Shown one piece after another: positions 6,056-18,171 of a stretch of DNA of 64,000 nt. Positions within the stretch are counted from its first letter, which is position 1, and each line of letters starts with the position of its first letter. Position numbers and translations under genes: made by a program. The stretch lies in NCBI GenBank assembly GCA_030431455.1, contig JAUIJE010000001.1, positions 620,001 through 684,000 of the forward strand, in the 5' to 3' direction. The stretch comes from a bacterium (lineage in GTDB: Bacteria; Myxococcota; UBA727; JAUIJE01). The notes beneath the pieces were generated by a model. The model was not told the DNA's origin. It ran no database searches and worked only from the letters and a program-made list of their open reading frames with translations.

Positions 6056-6073
6056 GGGGTGCTAAGGTTCGAT

Positions 6074-7171
6074 ATGGCCCGCGCACGCCGCCTGTGGACT
6101 TGGCGCCTCGGCCCGCTGCTGGTGGTGGCGGGCGCGACCGGGCTTTGGACCGGCTGTCCCCCCGGCGACGATGGGCCCGAGCCCGAGCCCGAGCCGGAGC
6201 CCGAGGTGGGGGGCTTCGACTTGGCCGACGTCGGCGCGCCCTGCGCGTACGTCAACGGCACGGGGGACAACCCCACCAGCGGGTGTGCCCAGGGCCTGAC
6301 CTGTTTGATCACGTCCTCGGACGGCGTCTACACCAACAACCGCAGCAACAGCTTCTGGGAAGACCAGACCACGGTGTACACGGACCAAATACAGAACGGT
6401 GCCTTCGTCGACGAGGGGTATTGCACGAAGGTGTCCACCACCGACGACACCGCGTTCACCTGCCCGGGGGGGACCGCGGCCAAGGTGTTCTCCCCCAATG
6501 TGATTGCGTGCATGAAGACCTGCACGCAGAACGAGGACTGCGGGCGGCAAGGCTACGTGTGCGACGTGCGCCACTTCGACATCGCCCAGGGACATTGCGT
6601 GCGGGCGTGCCGGTGGGACGCGCCGGACTGCGTTCGCTCCGGGGTGGGCAGCACCGCCGACGGGAGCAACCCGCTCCAGGCGTTCGTCGCTCTCGAGGAC
6701 CTGCAGGGCGCGTCGATGTGCGACGTGGGCACCGGTCTTTGCGTCGACGCGCCGGGCAACGGGGGCTCCGGTCCCGGCGAAGCGTGCACCACCACCGCGG
6801 ACTGCGCGGGGGGGCTGACCTGCTACCAAGGGGAGCGGTTCTTTGACGGCGCCACCGCCGACCAAGGGGTGTGCGGGTTCGCGTGCGCCCCCGACCCCGC
6901 GGGCGACGCCGACGCCAACCGCGCGGCCTGCGCCGGCGCGGTCGGGCATGTGTGCCAAGCGGCGTTTCGCGGAGGCTTTGTGCCCTTCGCGGCCAAATCG
7001 CTCTCTGACGGCAATGACTTCGTCGCCGGGGGGCTTTGTTTCCCCGACTGCACCCTCGATCCCAACATCTGTCTCAGCCACCCGGGCACGGCCTGCGCGG
7101 CCCTCAACGACAGCCTGGGCGAACCCTGGAATGGAGTGTCAATGTGTCTGCTTCCACCGCTTCGCAACTGA
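6074..7171 (+). CDS. Cys-rich secreted protein, first of two tandem paralogs
   Basis: A 365-residue exported protein of unknown function. The N-terminus has a positively charged start, a hydrophobic stretch (LGPLLVVAGATGLW) and a Cys at TGC, so a lipoprotein is likely although the lipobox is imperfect. An acidic linker of alternating Pro-Glu follows. The mature part contains some twenty Cys in repeated units such as DCGRQGYVCD, GHCVRAC and CQAAFRGG, similar to Cys-rich surface proteins of myxobacteria. I use the ATG at 6074 rather than the upstream in-frame GTG at 6059, because AAGG lies at suitable spacing. Its 3' end overlaps the next gene by 28 bp. Confidence 0.75.
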   Translation: MARARRLWTWRLGPLLVVAGATGLWTGCPPGDDGPEPEPEPEPEVGGFDLADVGAPCAYVNGTGDNPTSGCAQGLTCLITSSDGVYTNNRSNSFWEDQTTVYTDQIQNGAFVDEGYCTKVSTTDDTAFTCPGGTAAKVFSPNVIACMKTCTQNEDCGRQGYVCDVRHFDIAQGHCVRACRWDAPDCVRSGVGSTADGSNPLQAFVALEDLQGASMCDVGTGLCVDAPGNGGSGPGEACTTTADCAGGLTCYQGERFFDGATADQGVCGFACAPDPAGDADANRAACAGAVGHVCQAAFRGGFVPFAAKSLSDGNDFVAGGLCFPDCTLDPNICLSHPGTACAALNDSLGEPWNGVSMCLLPPLRN

Positions 7172-8289
7172 CCCGCGTCGTCGTCCGCAGCGCCGGTCTC
7201 GGGCTGTTCGTGATCGTTCTCATGGGCGCCAGCCGGTGCGGCGGGACCATCACCCCCCGGGACGCCGGCACCGACCTGCCCGACGGCGGGGTCACCGCGG
7301 ACATGATCGGCACCCCCTGCGAATACGTCGACGGGTCTGGCGAAAACCCCACCAACGACTGCGAGGCCGGCCTGACCTGCCTCATCCGCACCTATGACGG
7401 GCTGTATGGCGCGGCGTTGACCAACTACTTCTGGGAAGACCAGTTCACCGTCTACACCGACCGCATGGTCGGCAACAGCTTCGTCGACGAGGGCTACTGC
7501 ACCCTGGTGTCGGCGTGGAACGACCCCAACTTCCGCTGCCCCGCGGGCACGTTCCCCAAGCTGCTGTCCACCAATGTGCAGGCGTGCATGAAGCTCTGCA
7601 CCAGCAACGCCGACTGCGGCCGGCAAGGCTACGTGTGCGACTACCGGTATTTCGACATGCCCTCGCAAGGGCAGGGCGGGGCCCAGGTCGGCCATTGCGT
7701 GCGCGCGTGCCGCACCGACGCCCCCGACTGCGTCCGGTCCGGCATCGTCACCACCCAGATGGACCCCAACCAAGTCGCGGCCTACGTGGCGTACGAGGAC
7801 CTCGAGGGCCAAAGCGTGTGCGACGTGGGCACCGGCATCTGCGGCGTCAACCCCGACGGCGCGGGCGGGGACGTGCTCCCCGGGGGCGCGTGCAACGACA
7901 CCACCGAGTGCGCCGGGTTCCAGCTGTGCTACCAGGCCTCGGCGTTCTTCCCGCAAATCCCCGATGGCGACGGCATCTGCGGCTTGCCGTGTGCGCCCTC
8001 GGCCAACCCCGATCCCACCCAGCGCGCCCAAGAGAACCGCGCCTCGTGCAACGCGGCTCCCGGATATGTGTGCCAGGCCGCGTTCCGCAACGGCCACGTG
8101 CCCTTCGCGGTGAAGTCGCTGCTCGAGGGGGTCGATTTGCAGGCGGGGGGCATTTGTCTGCCCGATTGCAGCGCCAACCCCAACGCGTGCGCAAGTTTTC
8201 CCGGGACGACGTGCGGGCAGCTCAACAACAACCTGCTCGAGCCCTGGAACGGCGTGTCCATGTGTCTCATGCCCCAGCTGTCCCAATGA
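7144..8289 (+). CDS. Cys-rich secreted protein, second tandem paralog
   Basis: An exported protein of about 381 residues, clearly paralogous to the preceding gene: both share WEDQ-TVYTD, FVDEGYCT, CGRQGYVCD, DAPDCVRSG and a closing EPWNGVSMCL block in the same order. A signal-like segment (GLGLFVIVLMGASRC) starts the protein. GTG 7144 is the most sensible start because it places this segment at the N-terminus; a longer frame reaches upstream inside the neighbour. Function is unknown. The pairing suggests a local duplication with translation coupled through the 28-bp overlap. Confidence 0.72.
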   Translation: MSASTASQLTRVVVRSAGLGLFVIVLMGASRCGGTITPRDAGTDLPDGGVTADMIGTPCEYVDGSGENPTNDCEAGLTCLIRTYDGLYGAALTNYFWEDQFTVYTDRMVGNSFVDEGYCTLVSAWNDPNFRCPAGTFPKLLSTNVQACMKLCTSNADCGRQGYVCDYRYFDMPSQGQGGAQVGHCVRACRTDAPDCVRSGIVTTQMDPNQVAAYVAYEDLEGQSVCDVGTGICGVNPDGAGGDVLPGGACNDTTECAGFQLCYQASAFFPQIPDGDGICGLPCAPSANPDPTQRAQENRASCNAAPGYVCQAAFRNGHVPFAVKSLLEGVDLQAGGICLPDCSANPNACASFPGTTCGQLNNNLLEPWNGVSMCLMPQLSQ

Positions 8290-8410
8290 GCTTGCCTGCC
8301 GCGCGCCGCGGCGCGCCCGGGTTTGTGCGGGCGGCCGGGGCGGCAAAAAGCGGGGCAGAGTTGGGTGTGGGTGGGGTTTCGGGGTAAGTTGCTCCTCGGT
8401 GACCACCACG

Positions 8411-8794
8411 ATGCGCGCCCTGATCGTTGACGATTCCAAGTCCGCCCGAGAGGTGGCGCGGGTGTCGTTGGAGGCGGCGTTGGCCGACCTCGGGATCGAG
8501 GGCGAAGTGGTGGTGGCCGAGAACGGCATGCAGGCCCTGAAGATCCTCGCCCAGGACGGCATCGACCTGATGGTGGTGGATTTGCACATGCCCGACCTCA
8601 ACGGCCTCGAGGTGCTCGCGTTCTGGCAAGAGCGGCGGGTCGAGGGGGCGGTGGCGTACGTGTCGAGCACGCTGGTGTCCGATCGCGACGCCGAGAAGGC
8701 GCGCGACGCGGGGGCGGCGGGCTTTTTGGAAAAGCCGGTCACGGTGGAGGCGTTCGCCGCGGTGCTCCAACCACGCGGGGATGGCGGTGTCTGA
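8411..8794 (+). CDS. CheY-like single-domain response regulator
   Basis: A stand-alone receiver of 127 residues. All signature residues are present: the acidic pair Asp7-Asp8, the phosphoacceptor Asp57 (VVDLHMPD) and Lys108 (EKPV). Ser85/Ser86 occupy the switch Ser/Thr position. I choose ATG 8411 because the fold begins immediately after it; an in-frame GTG at 8399 is also possible. It opens the chemosensory operon and overlaps cheA by 14 bp, so it is probably a phosphorylation target of that CheA. Output partner unknown. Confidence 0.9.
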   Translation: MRALIVDDSKSAREVARVSLEAALADLGIEGEVVVAENGMQALKILAQDGIDLMVVDLHMPDLNGLEVLAFWQERRVEGAVAYVSSTLVSDRDAEKARDAGAAGFLEKPVTVEAFAAVLQPRGDGGV

Positions 8795-10865
8795 ACCTCT
8801 CGATCGCCGGTCGATGCGAGAGTTTCTCGTCGAGGCCAGCGAAATTGTGGAGAGCATGGCCACCGGGTTCTCGCTCCTCGACGAGGGGCGGCGCAAAGGG
8901 CGGGTCAAGCCCTCCCAGCTCAACGATGTCTTTCGGGCCGCGCACAGCCTCAAGGGGCTCGCGGGCATGTTCGGGGTCGAGGCCATCGGCATCCTCGCCC
9001 ACGAGATGGAGACCCTGCTCGACGGGCTGCGCCTCGGGCGGGTGACCCTCGACGACGGGGTCATGGACCTGCTCTATGCCTGCGCCGACGCGTTCACCCG
9101 GTCGCTCGGGGCGCTCAAAGCCGGCGAGCCCGACGACATGGAGACCGCCAGCAACCTCGTCGAGCGCCTCCAGCGCGCCGCGAGCAAAGCCGGCGGCGGG
9201 GCCAGCGAGGCCGCGTCGGTGCTCAAGCTGTCGGCCCAAGCCCTCAGCGTGCTCACCGAGTACGAGGAGCACCGACTCTCCGAGAACCTCCGCGAGCGCC
9301 GGCCCATCTACCGGGTCAGCGCCCCGCTGCCGCTGGACACCTTCGAAAGCGACCTGTCGATGCTCACCGAGCTGCTCACCAGCATCGGCGAGGTCATCAC
9401 CACGTTGCCGTCGGCGGACAACACCGGGACCGGCATCGACTTCGACCTCATCGTGGCCACCAACGCCCCCGACCACGAGCTGACCACCAAGCTGCGCGGC
9501 CTGTCCACCGCGTACGGGGTGGAGCGCGTCGATCGCCAGACCGCGGCCCCCACCGGGTCCGGGGATGGCGGCGAGGGCGCCCACCTGGCCGAGGACGACA
9601 TGTTGTCCCTTCGGCAGGTGGCCGACACCGTGCGCGTGGACATCGACAAGCTCGACGAACTCATGGGCATTGTGGGCGAGCTGGTGCTCGCCCGCGGCGG
9701 CCTGACCCGGGTCACCGACGAGCTCAAGAACCAGCTCGGCTACCGCGGCATCGCCGTCGACCTGCATCGCTTGGTGCGCACTGTCGAGCGCCGCATCTCC
9801 GATCTCCAATCTGCGATCATGCAGGTGCGCATGATTCCGCTCGGCCAGGTGTTTGACCGCTTGGCCCGGGTCGTGCGCCGGGTGGCCAGCGGGCTCGGCA
9901 AAGAAGTCGACCTCCGCCTCGCCGGCGAAGAGACCGAACTCGACAAGCTCATCGTCGAGGACCTCGTCGACCCCTTGATGCATTTGGTGCGCAACGCCAT
10001 CGACCACGGGCTGGAGGCCCCCGACGACCGGGAGGGGATGGGCAAGCCCCGCGCGGGCACGCTGCGCATGCGCGCCTTCCCCCGCGGCAACCACGTGGTG
10101 CTCGTGGTCGAGGACGACGGCCGGGGCATCGATGAGGTCGCGGTCCGCCGCACCGCCCTCGAGCGCGGGATCGTGAGCGAGGATCAGGTGGGGGCCTTGA
10201 CCCAGCGGGACGTGTGGAACCTCATCTTCGACCCGGGCTTTTCCACCAAAAAGGCGGTGAGCGAGACCAGCGGCCGCGGGGTGGGGCTCGACGTGGTCAA
10301 GCACAACATCGCCCGGTTGTCTGGCATCATCGATGTGCACAGCGAAGCGGGGCAGGGCACGACCTTCACCATCACCCTCCCCATCACCCTCGCCATCATC
10401 CAGAGTCTTATTGTGCACTGCCGCGACCAGGTGTTCGCGTTGCCCTTGGCCTCGGTGCTCGAGATCGTGCTCATCACCGAGACCGACCTGTGCTTCGTCG
10501 ACGGGCGGGAGATGGTCGAGGTCCGGGGCGACACCTTGCCGTTGCTCCGTCTCGACGAGCATTTTGCCATCTCCGGCCCGCGCCCGGTGAGCGCGGACGA
10601 TGAAGAACACTTCGAGGGCCTCGGCTACGTGGCGGTGGTGGGCCTGGCCCAACACCGGGTCGCCTTGTTCGTCGACGACGTCACCGGCCAGCAAGACATC
10701 GTGATCAAATCCCTCGGGGCCTACCTGTCCAACGTGCGCGGCTTCGCCGGCGCCACCCAGCTCGGCGACCACGAGACGATCCTCGTCCTCGACGTGGCCG
10801 CGTTGGTGTCCGAGTTCATCGAGCGCAACGAGCGCCGCCCCGGCCGGGCCCCCCTGCCGGGATAG
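8781..10865 (+). CDS. cheA: Chemosensory histidine kinase CheA
   Basis: The central kinase of a chemosensory array, 694 residues. It has an N-terminal HPt (P1) with phospho-His55 in AAHSLKG; a middle segment at about 173-255 (YRVSAPLPLDTF and onward) that resembles a P2-type domain; a dimerisation helix pair from about 275; an ATPase domain with N box HLVRNAIDHGLE, G1 VEDDGRGID and G2 GRGVGLDVVK; and a C-terminal CheW-like regulatory domain. No receiver is fused at the C-terminus, unlike the Myxococcus Frz kinase. ATG 8781 overlaps the upstream CheY gene. Ten bases separate it from the AAA ATPase gene. Confidence 0.96.
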   Translation: MAVSEPLDRRSMREFLVEASEIVESMATGFSLLDEGRRKGRVKPSQLNDVFRAAHSLKGLAGMFGVEAIGILAHEMETLLDGLRLGRVTLDDGVMDLLYACADAFTRSLGALKAGEPDDMETASNLVERLQRAASKAGGGASEAASVLKLSAQALSVLTEYEEHRLSENLRERRPIYRVSAPLPLDTFESDLSMLTELLTSIGEVITTLPSADNTGTGIDFDLIVATNAPDHELTTKLRGLSTAYGVERVDRQTAAPTGSGDGGEGAHLAEDDMLSLRQVADTVRVDIDKLDELMGIVGELVLARGGLTRVTDELKNQLGYRGIAVDLHRLVRTVERRISDLQSAIMQVRMIPLGQVFDRLARVVRRVASGLGKEVDLRLAGEETELDKLIVEDLVDPLMHLVRNAIDHGLEAPDDREGMGKPRAGTLRMRAFPRGNHVVLVVEDDGRGIDEVAVRRTALERGIVSEDQVGALTQRDVWNLIFDPGFSTKKAVSETSGRGVGLDVVKHNIARLSGIIDVHSEAGQGTTFTITLPITLAIIQSLIVHCRDQVFALPLASVLEIVLITETDLCFVDGREMVEVRGDTLPLLRLDEHFAISGPRPVSADDEEHFEGLGYVAVVGLAQHRVALFVDDVTGQQDIVIKSLGAYLSNVRGFAGATQLGDHETILVLDVAALVSEFIERNERRPGRAPLPG

Positions 10866-10875
10866 GAGACGCGGC

Positions 10876-11754
10876 GTGTACGAAGAGCACTTCGGGCTGA
10901 GCAAGCGGCCGTTTTCCAAGACCCCGGACCCGGCGTTCTTGTACGAGGGCAAGATTCACGGCGAGGCCCTGGCCCGGCTGCAATACGCGGTCGAAGAAAA
11001 AGAGATCGCGCTGCTCACCGGCGAGGTGGGCGCGGGCAAGACCACGCTGTCGCGGGCGCTGATCGATCGACTCGACGAGAAGTTTCGCGTGGTCCTGGTC
11101 ATCAACCCCCGCTTGTCCGCCACCCAGCTGCTCGCCCTCATCGCCGAGCGCCTCGGGGTCGACCCCGTCCCCCGGGGCAAGGTCAAGTTGCTCGACGCCC
11201 TCACCGCCCAGCTGTTCGCCCTGTACGAAGCCGGCCACAGCCCGTTGGTGATCGTGGACGAGGCCCAGCTCATCCCCAGCAAGACCGTGTTCGAGGAGCT
11301 GCGCCTGCTCACCAACGTCCAGCTCGACGAGGACCCCCTGGTGGGGTTGCTCCTCATCGGGCAGCCCGAGCTTGCCACCAAATTGGCCAAGAAGGCCTAC
11401 GCGAGCTTCGCCCAGCGGGTGGGCATGGCCTACCACCTCGGCCCGCTCGACGAGGCCGGGGTGTTCGAGTACGTGCGCCATCGCCTCGCGGTCGCGGGGG
11501 GCGGAGCCCAGCTGTTCACAGATGACGCATTGGCATTGGTGTTCCGCGGCAGCGAAGGCATCCCCCGCCGCATCAACACCATCTGCCAGTCCGCGCTCCT
11601 GGTCGCCTTCGGGGAGGGCGCGCCCCGGGTGGAGGCGTCGGCGGTGGCGGACGTGCTCGACGACCTGTCCCGCCACCTCGGCAGCGTCTTCCCCGCGGTG
11701 GCCCCCGCCCCCGACCTCTCGGGCCTCGACAAGGGGGGCGCGTGGACATCCTGA
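10876..11754 (+). CDS. ExeA/GspA-like AAA ATPase within the chemosensory operon
   Basis: A 292-residue P-loop ATPase of the ExeA/GspA type. It starts with the family hallmark MYEEHFGLSKRPFSKTPDP, has Walker A GEVGAGKTT (Lys55) and Walker B LVIVDEAQ (Asp128-Glu129), and ends with a helical lid including GIPRRIN. ExeA proteins help assemble type II secretion secretins using a peptidoglycan-binding domain; this copy has no such domain and no transmembrane segment, so it should be cytoplasmic. The start is GTG 10876. It lies between cheA and a cheW gene, overlapping the latter by 13 bp. A role in placing or assembling the chemosensory array is only inference. Confidence 0.85.
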   Translation: MYEEHFGLSKRPFSKTPDPAFLYEGKIHGEALARLQYAVEEKEIALLTGEVGAGKTTLSRALIDRLDEKFRVVLVINPRLSATQLLALIAERLGVDPVPRGKVKLLDALTAQLFALYEAGHSPLVIVDEAQLIPSKTVFEELRLLTNVQLDEDPLVGLLLIGQPELATKLAKKAYASFAQRVGMAYHLGPLDEAGVFEYVRHRLAVAGGGAQLFTDDALALVFRGSEGIPRRINTICQSALLVAFGEGAPRVEASAVADVLDDLSRHLGSVFPAVAPAPDLSGLDKGGAWTS

Positions 11755-12530
11755 AGATCCGCAAGAAGGGACGGGGGGCCGCCCCGGGGGACAAGCCCGC
11801 GGGACCCGAGGCGAGCGCCGCGCCGCCGCCGCCCACAGATCCGGCCCCCCCGGCGTCGGACGCCCCCGCGCCAGCGCCGGACGCCCCTGCGCCCGCGCCC
11901 CCCGGTCCCCCGCCCGCGGCGGCCCCGGACAGCGCCGCGGGCGCGGCCTGGACGTCCCGGGCCGCGGTGCGGGTCAAAGACGAGGCGGTGGCGATCGAAC
12001 CGCGCGAGGTCGATCCCCTCGGCGAGTTCTTGGCCCGCTACGACGAGGCCGAGGCGGGCACGCTGGGCGAGGCCAACGACGTCAGCGACGCCCCGCGCTA
12101 CCTCGCCTTTGACCTCGAGCGCGAACGGTACGCGACCTCGATCCTCTCGGTGCGCGAAATCCTCAAGACCGCCCAGGTCACGCCGGTGCCGCGCTGCCAG
12201 CGGGGCGTGCTCGGGGTCTTGTCCAAACGCGGCGTGGTGATGCCGGTGGTCGACCTCGCCGCGTGCCTGGAGCTGCGCGACATCGAACAGCGGGTGGACA
12301 CCCGGCAGCGCATTCTCGTCGTGGGCGAGGGCGATCACATCTGCGGCCTGCGGGTGGACGCGGTGCACGGCGTGGTCGAGCTCCCCGCCGGCGACATCGG
12401 CCCGGTGCCGGCCGGGGTGGAGCCCCGGGGGGTCGGGGTCCTGCATGGCCTTGGCCGGGTCGGCGGGGTGTTGCACATCCTGCTCGATGCAGATGCATTT
12501 TTGGCCTTCTTGGAGAACCTCGCGGAATGA
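11742..12530 (+). CDS. CheW-domain protein with Pro/Ala-rich N-terminal tail
   Basis: A 262-residue adaptor. Residues 1-15 are basic, residues about 20-70 are almost entirely Ala, Pro, Asp and Gly (a flexible linker), and a CheW-like SH3-fold domain occupies roughly 110-260 (YLAFDLERERYATSILSVREIL, start of domain). CheW proteins bridge receptors and CheA; the long disordered extension is unusual and could tether the adaptor to another partner. GTG 11742 overlaps the ATPase gene by 13 bp, and the stop overlaps the next cheW gene by 4 bp. Confidence 0.86.
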   Translation: MDILKIRKKGRGAAPGDKPAGPEASAAPPPPTDPAPPASDAPAPAPDAPAPAPPGPPPAAAPDSAAGAAWTSRAAVRVKDEAVAIEPREVDPLGEFLARYDEAEAGTLGEANDVSDAPRYLAFDLERERYATSILSVREILKTAQVTPVPRCQRGVLGVLSKRGVVMPVVDLAACLELRDIEQRVDTRQRILVVGEGDHICGLRVDAVHGVVELPAGDIGPVPAGVEPRGVGVLHGLGRVGGVLHILLDADAFLAFLENLAE

Positions 12531-13048
12531 GCACCGCCAAGCCCCCGCGCAAACCCGGCCTCTCGCCCGAGGAGCCGCTTCGCCTGGCCACGTTCCGGGT
12601 CCAGGGCCGGATGTTCGCGGTGGACATCATGCGCATCCGCGAGATCGTCCGGCCCCTGCGCATCACGTCGGTGCCGCAGGCGCCGACCCACATGGTCGGG
12701 GTGTTCAACCTGCGGGGCACGGTGTTGCCGCTGTTCCGCATGACCACCGACGACAGCCGCTTTGGCGCGCACAACCTCGGGCGGTACTTGATCCTCAGCG
12801 TCGACGGGCGGCACGTGGCCCTCATCGTCGATGATGTGCTCGACGTGTTGCAGATCCGGCGCAAGGACGTGCGCCTCTCGGAAGCGGTGCTGTCCGGCAA
12901 CGCCGCCGACCTGTTCGTGGGCGTGGTCACGGTCGAGGACGAAGTGGTGTTTTTGGTCAATGTGCGGGCCCTGTTGCAGGGGGCCGACGCGGTGGATTGG
13001 ACGCAGTTTGCCCCCGAGGCGATGTCCGCCCCCGAGGGAGAACCATGA
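12527..13048 (+). CDS. cheW: CheW adaptor protein
   Basis: A compact 173-residue CheW that couples receptors to CheA. The CheW domain runs from about residue 20 (ATFRVQGRMFAVDIMRIREI) to 160, with the FNLRGTVLPLF motif in the centre. The ATG at 12527 overlaps the preceding stop as ATGA, and its own stop overlaps the next ATG the same way. The in-frame extension upstream lacks CheW sequence, so it is not used. Two different CheW proteins in one operon suggest either two receptor classes or an adaptor with a second task. Confidence 0.93.
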   Translation: MSTAKPPRKPGLSPEEPLRLATFRVQGRMFAVDIMRIREIVRPLRITSVPQAPTHMVGVFNLRGTVLPLFRMTTDDSRFGAHNLGRYLILSVDGRHVALIVDDVLDVLQIRRKDVRLSEAVLSGNAADLFVGVVTVEDEVVFLVNVRALLQGADAVDWTQFAPEAMSAPEGEP

Positions 13049-13925
13049 GCGAGTCGGTGGTGTTCTGCCCCCATTGCGGTGGTCGTTTTGTCGGCCCCGA
13101 GGCCCTGCTGTCCGACGAGGCGGTGGTGATTCTGTGCGGGTTGTGTCGCCAGGCCTCGAAGGTCGCGGACCTCTCGGTGGAGCCGGATCGCGAGGCCCCG
13201 GAGGAGGCGCCCACGGTGGGGCCCCGGGTGGTGGTGGGCCACGAGCAGCCCGGGGCGAGCCGCACCTTGGCCCGGGTGTTGCGCGCCGGTGGCTACGACC
13301 CGGTGCTGGTCGGGACCGGGGACTTGGTGTTGCAGGCCTGTGACCCGGCCTTGCCCGCGGGGGTGCACGCGGTGCTCCTCGACGTGGCCATCCCCGGCGT
13401 GCTCGCCTTCGAGGTCGTGCAGCAACTCAAAGACCACCCCGCGACCCAAGACGTGCCCATCGTGTTGCTGGCTTCGGTGTTCGAAAAGACCCGCTACAAG
13501 CGCCAGCCCAATCAGTTGTACGGGGCCAACGCCTACCTCGAGCTGCACCACGTGCCCGACCGCCTCTTGCCGCTGCTCGCCGCCCTCGAGGGGGGCGAAG
13601 AGTTCTCGGACGTGCACCGCCAGTCCCCGTCGGAGCGGGCCGCGGCCGCCCCCTTTCGCACCCGGGTGCAGGTGTCCAGCGAGGAGGGCCGGCGCATCTA
13701 TGCCCGCCGCTTACTCAGCGACATTGCGCTCTACCACGGCCAGGAGATCGACCAGGGCATTCGCTCCGACGACCCCCTGCAGCACGTCCAGGGCGCGGTC
13801 GAGGAGGCCCGGACCGCGTACCTCGCCGCCGCCCCCGGCCCCACCGCGGCGCGGACGTTTGACGAGGAGCTCGCCTCCTTCCGGGATCGCCTGGCCGAGC
13901 GACGCCGCGCCCGGGGCCAGTCACA

Positions 13926-13929
<4 letters not shown>
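13045..13929 (+). CDS. Zinc-ribbon plus degenerate receiver protein
   Basis: A 294-residue protein with an unusual layout. An N-terminal C4 zinc ribbon has Cys8, Cys11, Cys31 and Cys34 (CPHC and CGLC). A receiver-like domain covers about 60-180. It keeps the phosphoacceptor position Asp113 (LLDVAIPG), but the acidic pair is reduced to VGHE and the conserved Lys is replaced in AYLELHHVP, so normal phosphotransfer may not occur. A C-terminal helical tail of about 90 residues follows (YARRLLSDIALYHGQEIDQGI region), with no recognised domain. ATG 13045 overlaps the cheW stop. It may read CheA output without switching in the classical way. Confidence 0.82.
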
Positions 13930-15853
<1,924 letters not shown>

Positions 15854-15857
<4 letters not shown>

Positions 15858-16879
15858 GCGAACGTCCCCCCCGCGTCGTCGTCGTCGACGACAGCGCCGT
15901 GTCCCGGGGCGCGTTGTCCGAAGCCCTGTCCGAACACGGCATCGACGTCGTGGGCCGGGCCATGGACGGCAGCTTTGGTCTGCGCCTGGTGCTCGACCTC
16001 GACCCCGACGTGGTCACCTGTGACCTCGAGATGCCCCGCATGGACGGCTTCACCTTCCTGCGGGTGATCACCCAAAAGGCCCCGGTGCCGGTCATCGTCG
16101 TCACCTCCGACGCGCGCCCCGAAAGCGCGCTCCTCGCCCTCGAGCTCGGGGCCCGCGACTTTGTGGTCAAGCCCGAGGGCTCCACCGTCGCCATCCGCAA
16201 TCTCTCCGACACCTTGGCCCGGCGCATCTTTGCCCTCACCGAGGAGCATCGGCGGGTCAAGGACTACCGACCCTCGGTCGAGTTCGCCGTCCCCGAACAC
16301 ATCGAGCTCGCGGTGCTCGGCGCCTCCACCGGCGGCCCCAGCGCCATCCGCACCATCATGACGGGGATGAGCACGCCCAAGGTGCCGCTGCTCATCGCCC
16401 AGCACATGCCGCCCCGCTTCACCGCGGCCTTCGCGCACCGTCTGGAGAAGCTCACCGGGCTCGACGTCACCGAGGCCAAAGACGGCGAGGCCCTGCGGCC
16501 CGGCATGGTGCGCATCGCCCCCGGGGGGTTGCACCTCGGGCTCGGCCGCAGCCCCGACGGCCAACACCTGATCACGTTGTTGCATAAGCCGCTGGCGGGG
16601 GAGCTGTATTGCCCCAGCGTCGACCACCTGTTTCGCGACGCGGCCGAGGTGGCGGGCGCGGGCTGCCTCGCGGTGGTCCTGACCGGCATGGGCCGGGACG
16701 GCGCCGAGGGCGCGGCCAACATCCACGAGGTGGGCGGCACCGTTTGGTGCGAAGCCGAAAGCACCGCGGTCATCGCGGGCATGCCCAACGCCGCCGCGGC
16801 CCGGGCCCGGTCCTCGGTGCGCATCCCCCTCGACGGCATCGCGGACGCGCTCACCCGGGCGCTGGCGCGCGTCCCCTGA
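15854..16879 (+). CDS. cheB: Chemosensory methylesterase/deamidase CheB
   Basis: Removes receptor methyl groups and is normally activated by CheA phosphorylation. The 341 residues comprise an N-terminal receiver with Asp57 (CDLEMPRMDG) and a C-terminal esterase domain. The catalytic triad is visible: Ser near 158 (GASTGGPSA), His near 183 (QHMPP) and Asp near 281 (GMGRDGAEG). ATG 15854 overlaps the cheR stop by 4 bp. CheR and CheB imply a methylated receptor, although none is encoded here. A 67-bp gap follows, larger than other gaps in this operon. Confidence 0.96.
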
Positions 16880-16946
16880 ATGGTGTCCGGCGGGGCCAAG
16901 CGCTTGCCCCCGCGCCGAAAAGCGTGCGAAGTTCCCTCCCGACACA

Positions 16947-17771
16947 ATGAGCGACGCCAACAAAAAACCCGAGGACGATCACGAGGACTTCCTCAAGCTG
17001 TTCCGTCGCGGCCTCGCGTTCACCGAAGAGCTGCTCAAAGAAAATGAGCGCCTGCGGTACCGGCTCGCCGGCTACGAAGCCAAATCCGCGGAGCCCGAGA
17101 GCACCGCCACCGTGGACCTCGTCGAGAAGACGGTGGCCGAGCTCAAGGATCGCATCAACGAGCTCGAGGCCGAGAAGGCCGGGCTTTTGCGGTCCTACAC
17201 GGAGGCCGAATCGTCGAACGTCGACTTCAAGTCTCGCTATGCAGAGATTGAAGAGGAGCACAACAACCTCGCCAACCTCTACATCGCATCGTTCCAGTTG
17301 CATTCGACGCTGGTGTTCCCCGAGATCGTGCGGGTGGTCGCGGAGATCGTGATCAACTTCGTCGGGGTGCAGCGGTTCGCCATCTACCTGCACGACGCCG
17401 CCGGCGCGCGGCTGGAGGCGGTGTTCGCCGAGGGCCAGGAGGTCTCTGCGGCGGCGCCCATCGTGCTCGGCGATGGCGCGGTGGGGGCCGCGGTGCAGGC
17501 CCGCGACACCTTTTTGGACGAGGACGCGAGCAGCGACCCGCGGGCGGTGATCCCGTTGGTCGCCGGCGAGCACCTGGTGGGCGCGATCGTGATCAACGAG
17601 TTGCTGGTCCAGAAGGAAGCGTTCTCCCGTGTGGATCACGAGCTGTTTCATCTTTTGTCCGCCCACGCGGCGACCGCGCTGTTGAGCGGTCTGTTGCGCC
17701 ACGCGGCGGGGGAGGGCGCGGAAGGCGAGGTCATGAATTTGACGACCGCCCGCTCCCTCCTCCAAAACTAG
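16947..17771 (+). CDS. Coiled-coil/GAF domain protein
   Basis: A 274-residue cytoplasmic protein. Residues about 15-115 form a coiled coil (LLKENERLRYRLAGYEAK and later heptads), followed by a GAF domain at about 120-255 (TLVFPEIVRVVAEIVINFVGVQRFAIYL region) and a short tail. No kinase, cyclase or DNA-binding output is attached, so it may act as a sensor or scaffold through its coiled coil. It sits 67 bp after cheB and 19 bp before a second cheY, in line with membership of the chemosensory operon. The ligand is unknown. Confidence 0.8.
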   Translation: MSDANKKPEDDHEDFLKLFRRGLAFTEELLKENERLRYRLAGYEAKSAEPESTATVDLVEKTVAELKDRINELEAEKAGLLRSYTEAESSNVDFKSRYAEIEEEHNNLANLYIASFQLHSTLVFPEIVRVVAEIVINFVGVQRFAIYLHDAAGARLEAVFAEGQEVSAAAPIVLGDGAVGAAVQARDTFLDEDASSDPRAVIPLVAGEHLVGAIVINELLVQKEAFSRVDHELFHLLSAHAATALLSGLLRHAAGEGAEGEVMNLTTARSLLQN

Positions 17772-17790
17772 GGGCGGAGACGAGCCGAAG

Positions 17791-18171
17791 ATGTCTGAGA
17801 CGCTACAAGCGCTGGTGGTGGAAGATTCCCCGACGATGAGGCAGCTCATCGTGTTCGCCCTCTCGCGCATCAAGCAGCTCAAGGTGGTCGAGGCCGACGA
17901 CGGGGTCGACGCCCTGAAGAAGCTCAGCGGCCAACGCTTCGACATCCTGATCACCGACATCAACATGCCCATGCTCGACGGGCTCAAGCTGGTCTCCATG
18001 GTGCGCAAGGACGAGGTCCACCAGGACATCCCCATCGTGATCATCACCACCGAGGGCGCGCAGGAAGACCGGCAGCGGGCCCTGTCCCTCGGGGCCAACG
18101 CCTACATCACCAAGCCCATCCAGGCCCCCCAGGTGATTTCCAAGGTCAAAGAGCTGCTCAAACTCTCCTGA
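17791..18171 (+). CDS. CheY-type response regulator
   Basis: A 126-residue single receiver domain with every key residue: Glu11-Asp12, phosphoacceptor Asp56 (ILITDINMPMLDG), Thr87 and Lys108 (AYITKPI). It ends the chemosensory operon and is followed by a hairpin that may be a terminator. Compared with the first CheY in this operon it looks closer to the canonical motility type, but no flagellar or pilus gene lies nearby, so its output is not known. Confidence 0.93.
   Translation: MSETLQALVVEDSPTMRQLIVFALSRIKQLKVVEADDGVDALKKLSGQRFDILITDINMPMLDGLKLVSMVRKDEVHQDIPIVIITTEGAQEDRQRALSLGANAYITKPIQAPQVISKVKELLKLS

Follow-up and report, generated by a model that had tools for sequence, protein, structure and literature searches.

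The che cluster and its ATPase gene

The window, by which we mean the whole stretch of 64,000 nucleotides analysed here, comes from a Myxococcota genome of 7.7 Mb and contains a chemosensory cluster at 8399-18171, whose genes all lie on the + strand with short gaps or overlaps between them. The genes and features of the cluster are as follows:

8399-8794, + strand: CheY-like response regulator, first gene of the cluster (Pfam Response_reg, E 7e-19)
8781-10865, + strand: cheA, with Hpt, H-kinase_dim, HATPase_c and CheW domains (Pfam)
10876-11754, + strand: AAA+ ATPase of the ExeA clade (ORF, Pfam, TIGR03015, tree, fold)
11742-12530, + strand: CheW with an N-terminal tag and a long Pro/Ala-rich linker, ParP-like layout (Pfam CheW 120-255; AlphaFold)
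11742-11774, + strand: N-terminal tag of this CheW, MDILKIRKKGR (PSSM from other phyla, 28.7 bits)
12009-12044, + strand: second short motif of this CheW, DPLxxFLxxYD, residues about 91-101 (sequence comparison)
12527-13048, + strand: second cheW, lacking the tag (Pfam CheW, E 1e-25)
13042-13929, + strand: zinc-ribbon and degenerate receiver-like protein (weak receiver matches; homologs in the same place in relatives)
13926-15857, + strand: HEAT repeats fused to CheR (Pfam HEAT_2, CheR)
15854-16879, + strand: cheB (Pfam)
16947-17771, + strand: coiled-coil GAF protein (Pfam GAF_2; conserved in relatives)
17791-18171, + strand: cheY, end of the cluster (Pfam; 59-69% identity in other phyla)

A CheY-like gene is found 5' of cheA in nearly all relatives. 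The protein encoded at 13042-13929, which returned no Pfam match, begins with a zinc ribbon (CPHC...CGLC) and is kept in the Geobacter, Acidobacteriota and Myxococcota clusters. The Anaeromyxobacter and Geobacter clusters have one gene for HEAT and another for CheR. The host genome has three CheA and seven MCP genes, and none of the seven lies in this cluster. Two MCP genes of the same genome (L337, 819-2210; L338, 715-1965), one of them of the MCP-CZB kind, lack transmembrane segments, and their products are possibly cytoplasmic receptors for the MCP-less cluster. On the 5' side of the cluster, two adjacent genes (6059-7171 and 7036-8289) encode similar cysteine-rich, probably secreted proteins and represent a tandem duplication.

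The ATPase ORF runs from a GTG start to a TGA stop, encodes 292 amino acids and is preceded by a ribosome-binding-like GGAG. The cheA stop codon (TAG) at 10865 leaves a gap of 10 bp, and the GTG start of the tagged cheW at 11742 produces an overlap of 13 bp, in agreement with the spacing given in the original prediction. That prediction also described the protein as an ATPase of the ExeA/GspA type devoid of a peptidoglycan-binding domain, and this description holds: the protein has the ExeA N-terminal signature and a single AAA_22 domain (E 4.7e-23), and Pfam and profile searches of the protein found no peptidoglycan-binding domain. Its score against TIGR03015 (the XrtA/PEP-CTERM ATPase, an ExeA-like family) is 238.2 bits and falls below the curated cut-off of 324.5 bits. 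The AAA_22 module and the N-terminal signature are common to the che ATPases, ExeA/GspA, the XrtA-system ATPase (TIGR03015) and MshM-like AAA_22 ATPases, but the che ATPases are only 265-290 amino acids long, lack the membrane and peptidoglycan-binding part, form a separate clade and carry residues of their own. Because the membrane and peptidoglycan parts are missing, the che ATPase is not ExeA proper.

The catalytic motifs of the ATPase are intact (Walker A LTGEVGAGKTT, Walker B VIVDEAQ, and GxPRRIN); its P-loop is not the deviant Walker A (KGGxxK[S/T]) of the ParA superfamily. The protein shows no convincing membrane segment, with a maximum 19-residue hydropathy of 1.65 that is located inside the AAA+ core, and Pfam detected no receiver or sensor domain. 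The predicted structure (pLDDT 89.5) resembles Cdc6/ORC and the MuB and TnsC filaments (Z 19-21 in structure comparison), and profile matches to ORC2 and MuB likewise place the protein in the ORC/MuB/TnsC-type AAA+ fold. The calculated pI is 5.5 (median 5.6 across che ATPases), and this acidity argues mildly against DNA binding. One other ExeA-like gene exists in the same genome; its product is 37% identical to the che ATPase, and it adjoins a TPR gene away from che genes.

Conservation of the cheA-ATPase neighbourhood

A search of 195 Myxococcota genomes split the matches into 13 of at least 50% identity, including the one in the window, and a remainder of about 41% or less. All 12 other orthologs (50-56% identity) sit between cheA and a tagged CheW; no che gene was found near the 8 Myxococcota paralogs (36-41% identity) that were examined with flanks of about 9 kb. 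The alignment of the 13 members was used to scan 84,980 GTDB species genomes, and among the 80 best loci, selected by similarity alone, the ATPase lies directly 3' of cheA in every case (80/80). These best loci belong to Nitrospirota, Acidobacteriota, Aminicenantota, Desulfuromonadia (Geobacter, Geomonas, Desulfuromonas), Anaeromyxobacter and unplaced MAGs. In the tree, a single clade (SH-aLRT 88) holds the che-linked ATPases, and 34 paralogs fall outside it. What stays invariant across 155 che ATPases plus 33 paralogs is the set of catalytic residues, and residues exclusive to the che clade include K15, D18, E40, E41, R79, F139, Q149 and D151.

The cheA-ATPase neighbourhood is therefore conserved far more than chance would allow, and the original assignment of the ATPase to a chemosensory operon is borne out by this survey of adjacency to cheA and cheW, since every close relative examined is linked to che genes and the secretion-like paralogs fall in a clade of their own. 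A secretion-operon origin was rejected on the same grounds. No ATPase-CheW gene fusions were seen among the loci examined. In a different setting, contig C3 of genome G415 bears several near-identical copies of a 280-amino-acid ExeA-like protein, 28% identical to the che ATPase, which are probably transposition ATPases.

Judged from gene order and sequence, the ATPase has descended together with the cheA cluster, of which it is a standing component in at least four phyla. We regard it as a component dedicated to one class of chemosensory system, namely the Geobacter 'beta group'/Esn type together with its Myxococcota relatives. Its presence within that range is uneven: it was found at 47 of the 50 Desulfuromonadia CheA loci examined, and in only 13 of the 195 Myxococcota genomes, 127 of which have an ortholog of this cheA.

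The ExeA relationship raises the possibility that the ATPase joins the chemosensory array to an envelope machine, either a type IV pilus or a secretion secretin, with the CheW tag recruiting it to make that connection and the position of the array a secondary matter. ExeA-family ATPases act on secretins, ExeA itself functions in type II secretion, PA5037 is encoded beside pilMNOPQ and its loss by mutation lowers pilus number and twitching (PMC6321873), and pil genes are also needed for electrode colonisation by Geobacter (PMC5585712). We nevertheless consider this explanation unlikely: Pfam searches of the cluster genes revealed no secretin, pilus or peptidoglycan-binding part, the ATPase has no convincing membrane segment, and the paralogs fall outside the clade of the che ATPases.

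An N-terminal CheW tag that accompanies the ATPase

The CheW encoded immediately downstream consists of an N-terminal peptide, a long linker and a C-terminal CheW-like domain, and AlphaFold predicts residues 1-118 to be without structure and the CheW domain to be confidently folded. The tag has the consensus M[DN][ILF]xxIR[KN]KA[KR] across members; its first ten residues are nearly fixed, and R7 and K9 are nearly invariant. Between the tag and the second motif, the linker is hypervariable in both length and composition. The second motif, DPLxxFFxxDE in relatives, precedes the CheW domain and is kept with or without the ATPase; it is possibly another docking site.

When a tag PSSM trained on 65 non-Myxococcota CheWs was applied to the Myxococcota clusters, all 13 clusters with the ATPase scored 22-32 bits, and none of the 36 orthologous clusters without it exceeded 6.6 bits (Fisher 4e-12, computed without phylogeny). 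The CheWs of the ATPase-less clusters retain the second motif and the CheW domain. On the CheA tree (69 rows), both traits change 6 times and every change is coincident, and independent pairs on supported branches agree in 4 of 4 cases, which are too few to give a small p (sign test, p 0.125). The closest ATPase-less cluster, a sister cluster from the same taxonomic order (L136, G183), encodes a CheA of 63% identity, and there the ATPase and the tag have both been lost. Of the three Desulfuromonadia loci without the ATPase, the tag is likewise missing from L257 and L263; L261 (G454) keeps the near-tag MNLAETRKKAQ with no che ATPase, and this one true exception is best read as a recent loss of the ATPase.

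Across all orthologous clusters, the tag is present in 128 of 129 with the ATPase versus 0 of 39 without it, one of the 39 being the near-tag case. The odd one of the 129 (L128) has a one-residue variant, MDLAKIRKLS, and one extra residue (MVDL.., MIDL..) occurs in L059, L063, L066, L067, L075 and L130. Five further loci (L055, L057, L093, L099, L119) were rejected as exceptions, their ORFs having been wrongly chosen. The tag motif has a background rate of 1 in 8,659 start codons in ORFs, and it was absent from the 24 CheW loci scanned in four ATPase-less genomes.

In an Acidobacteriota/Aminicenantota group the ATPase is 3' of cheA without an adjacent CheW. If the tag and the ATPase work together, a tagged CheW is to be expected elsewhere in genomes in which cheW is unlinked. 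This was found in five of the six genomes scanned (L272, L273, L274, L276, L279), each of which holds three to eight CheW domains and exactly one tagged CheW; the candidate CheW of the sixth runs into the end of a contig and is truncated. Similarly, L106, L118 and L132 have no CheW adjacent to the ATPase, and a tagged CheW occurs elsewhere in the L106 and L132 genomes. By this distribution, the ATPase is tied to one CheW carrying the N-terminal tag. We did not find an earlier description of either the ATPase or the tag in the open-access literature.

Such a pattern could in principle arise by hitch-hiking in an operon, that is, by co-inheritance of an old gene pair that does not interact functionally, with the tag as a lineage marker of one CheW version. 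The small number of changes on the tree (6) is compatible with this reading, but the coincident losses occurred in separate lineages whose clusters were otherwise kept, and ATPase and tag are still found together in genomes that have the two genes unlinked; we judge hitch-hiking to be very unlikely.

Another explanation is that the tag serves as an amphipathic membrane anchor or DNA anchor for the array, makes no direct contact with the ATPase, and is retained with it as both serve location. The tag is indeed short, basic and N-terminal, and the AAA+ fold is nearest to the DNA-binding ORC/MuB/TnsC proteins. The helical hydrophobic moment of the tag is low (0.26-0.34), and a membrane anchor was rejected on that basis. 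The near-invariance of R7 and K9 exceeds what charge alone would need, the acidity of the ATPases does not favour DNA, and the tag is gone where the ATPase is gone. We find an anchor quite improbable, and docking of the ATPase on the array by the tag is, in our judgement, likely.

Discussion

In Geobacter sulfurreducens, GSU2222 (CheA), GSU2221 ('ATPase') and GSU2220 (CheW) show the same cheA-ATPase-cheW order in che cluster 5/Esn of the 'beta group', which has no mcp in the cluster (PMC2577667, PMC5585712). The CheAs are orthologous, and we infer from gene order, rather than from sequence, that GSU2221 is the ortholog of this ATPase. Tran et al. gave the name 'beta group' to che clusters of delta-proteobacteria that lack mcp genes, and described them as of unknown function, with preliminary effects on the extracellular matrix (PMC2577667). 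In the electrode Tn-Seq of Chan et al., GSU2220, GSU2221 and GSU2222 scored -2.4, -2.1 and -2.8, respectively, and deletions confirmed the need for the CheW and CheA genes on electrodes, while GSU2221 was left without follow-up (PMC5585712). A polar effect on cheW could account for the GSU2221 result in this screen. Neither study discusses the ATPase or the CheW tag, both of which are traced here through several phyla.

The resemblance of this Tn-Seq phenotype to those of cheA and cheW (PMC5585712), together with the fixed 1:1 association of the ATPase with cheA and one cheW, might indicate a signalling output or modulator that senses ATP or the kinase state, acts via the CheW tail to alter the activity of CheA and plays no part in locating the array. 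This appears unlikely to us, as orthologous CheA clusters work without the ATPase in most Myxococcota and the ATPase lacks a receiver or sensor domain. Since the same cheA cluster operates in most Myxococcota (Che8-like clusters, for example) with no such ATPase, the protein is not needed for signalling as such. By locus tags, Che8 of Myxococcus xanthus has the same order cheY-cheA-cheW-cheW...cheR-cheB-cheY (PMC3945109) but neither ATPase nor tag, going by the Myxococcaceae genomes searched, whose loci we presume to be Che8.

The original prediction likened the ATPase to Vibrio ParC. In Vibrio and other polar-flagellated gammaproteobacteria, ParC and ParP are likewise an ATPase and a CheW-like adaptor encoded in the cheA operon, and ParP comprises an N-terminal ParC-binding domain, a long proline-rich linker and a CheW-like domain (PMC5706961). 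The che ATPase shares this genomic context, and the analogy is strengthened by the ParP layout of the downstream CheW and by the co-occurrence of its peptide with the ATPase, from which an interaction may be surmised. The likeness does not extend to the ATPase family: ParC is of the ParA type with a deviant Walker A, whereas the che ATPase is an AAA+ protein with a classical P-loop; the N-terminal part of ParP is a domain, whereas the tagged CheW has a tag of about 11 residues; and ParC-ParP occurs in other phyla and in another cluster type. By analogy, then, the che ATPase may work like ParC-ParP without being a member of that system. PpfA-TlpT of the Rhodobacter cytoplasmic arrays also involves a che-encoded ATPase, which acts in array segregation (PMC9178275), but PpfA belongs to the ParA family and its partner TlpT is a soluble receptor rather than a CheW.

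We propose that the tag is a docking site for the ATPase, which would be a self-assembling AAA+ protein of the ORC/MuB/TnsC type. The tagged CheW would be built into the CheA-receptor array by its CheW domain, and its long flexible linker would enable the tag to bring the ATP-bound ATPase there. The conserved basic tag residues R7-K8-K9 may contact the acidic, che-only residues D18, E40, E41 and D151, which would face the tag, and this contact may trigger ATP hydrolysis. The ATP cycle would then place, seed or remodel the array, as ParC-ParP does in Vibrio. Array positioning or assembly as the output of the ATPase is a reasoned guess to which we give nearly even chances. Taken as a whole, a dedicated ATPase that is docked by the tag and acts in array placement or assembly is probably the best explanation of the data.

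To our knowledge, array handling is known to be performed by ParA-type ATPases only. We tentatively raise the possibility, toward which we lean less than to its alternative, that a second, independently evolved, ATP-driven array-handling system exists in Nitrospirota, Acidobacteriota, Desulfuromonadia and Myxococcota, in which an AAA+ protein of the ORC/MuB/TnsC fold is recruited by the tag, and that this system is needed for the growth of Geobacter on electrodes. The tag provides a simple sequence marker for locating such systems, the peptide-ATPase interface is defined and open to test, and the uncharacterised GSU2221 acquires a likely role. If the proposal is true, array handling would have evolved convergently, with a wholly different ATPase fold paired with the same adaptor layout.
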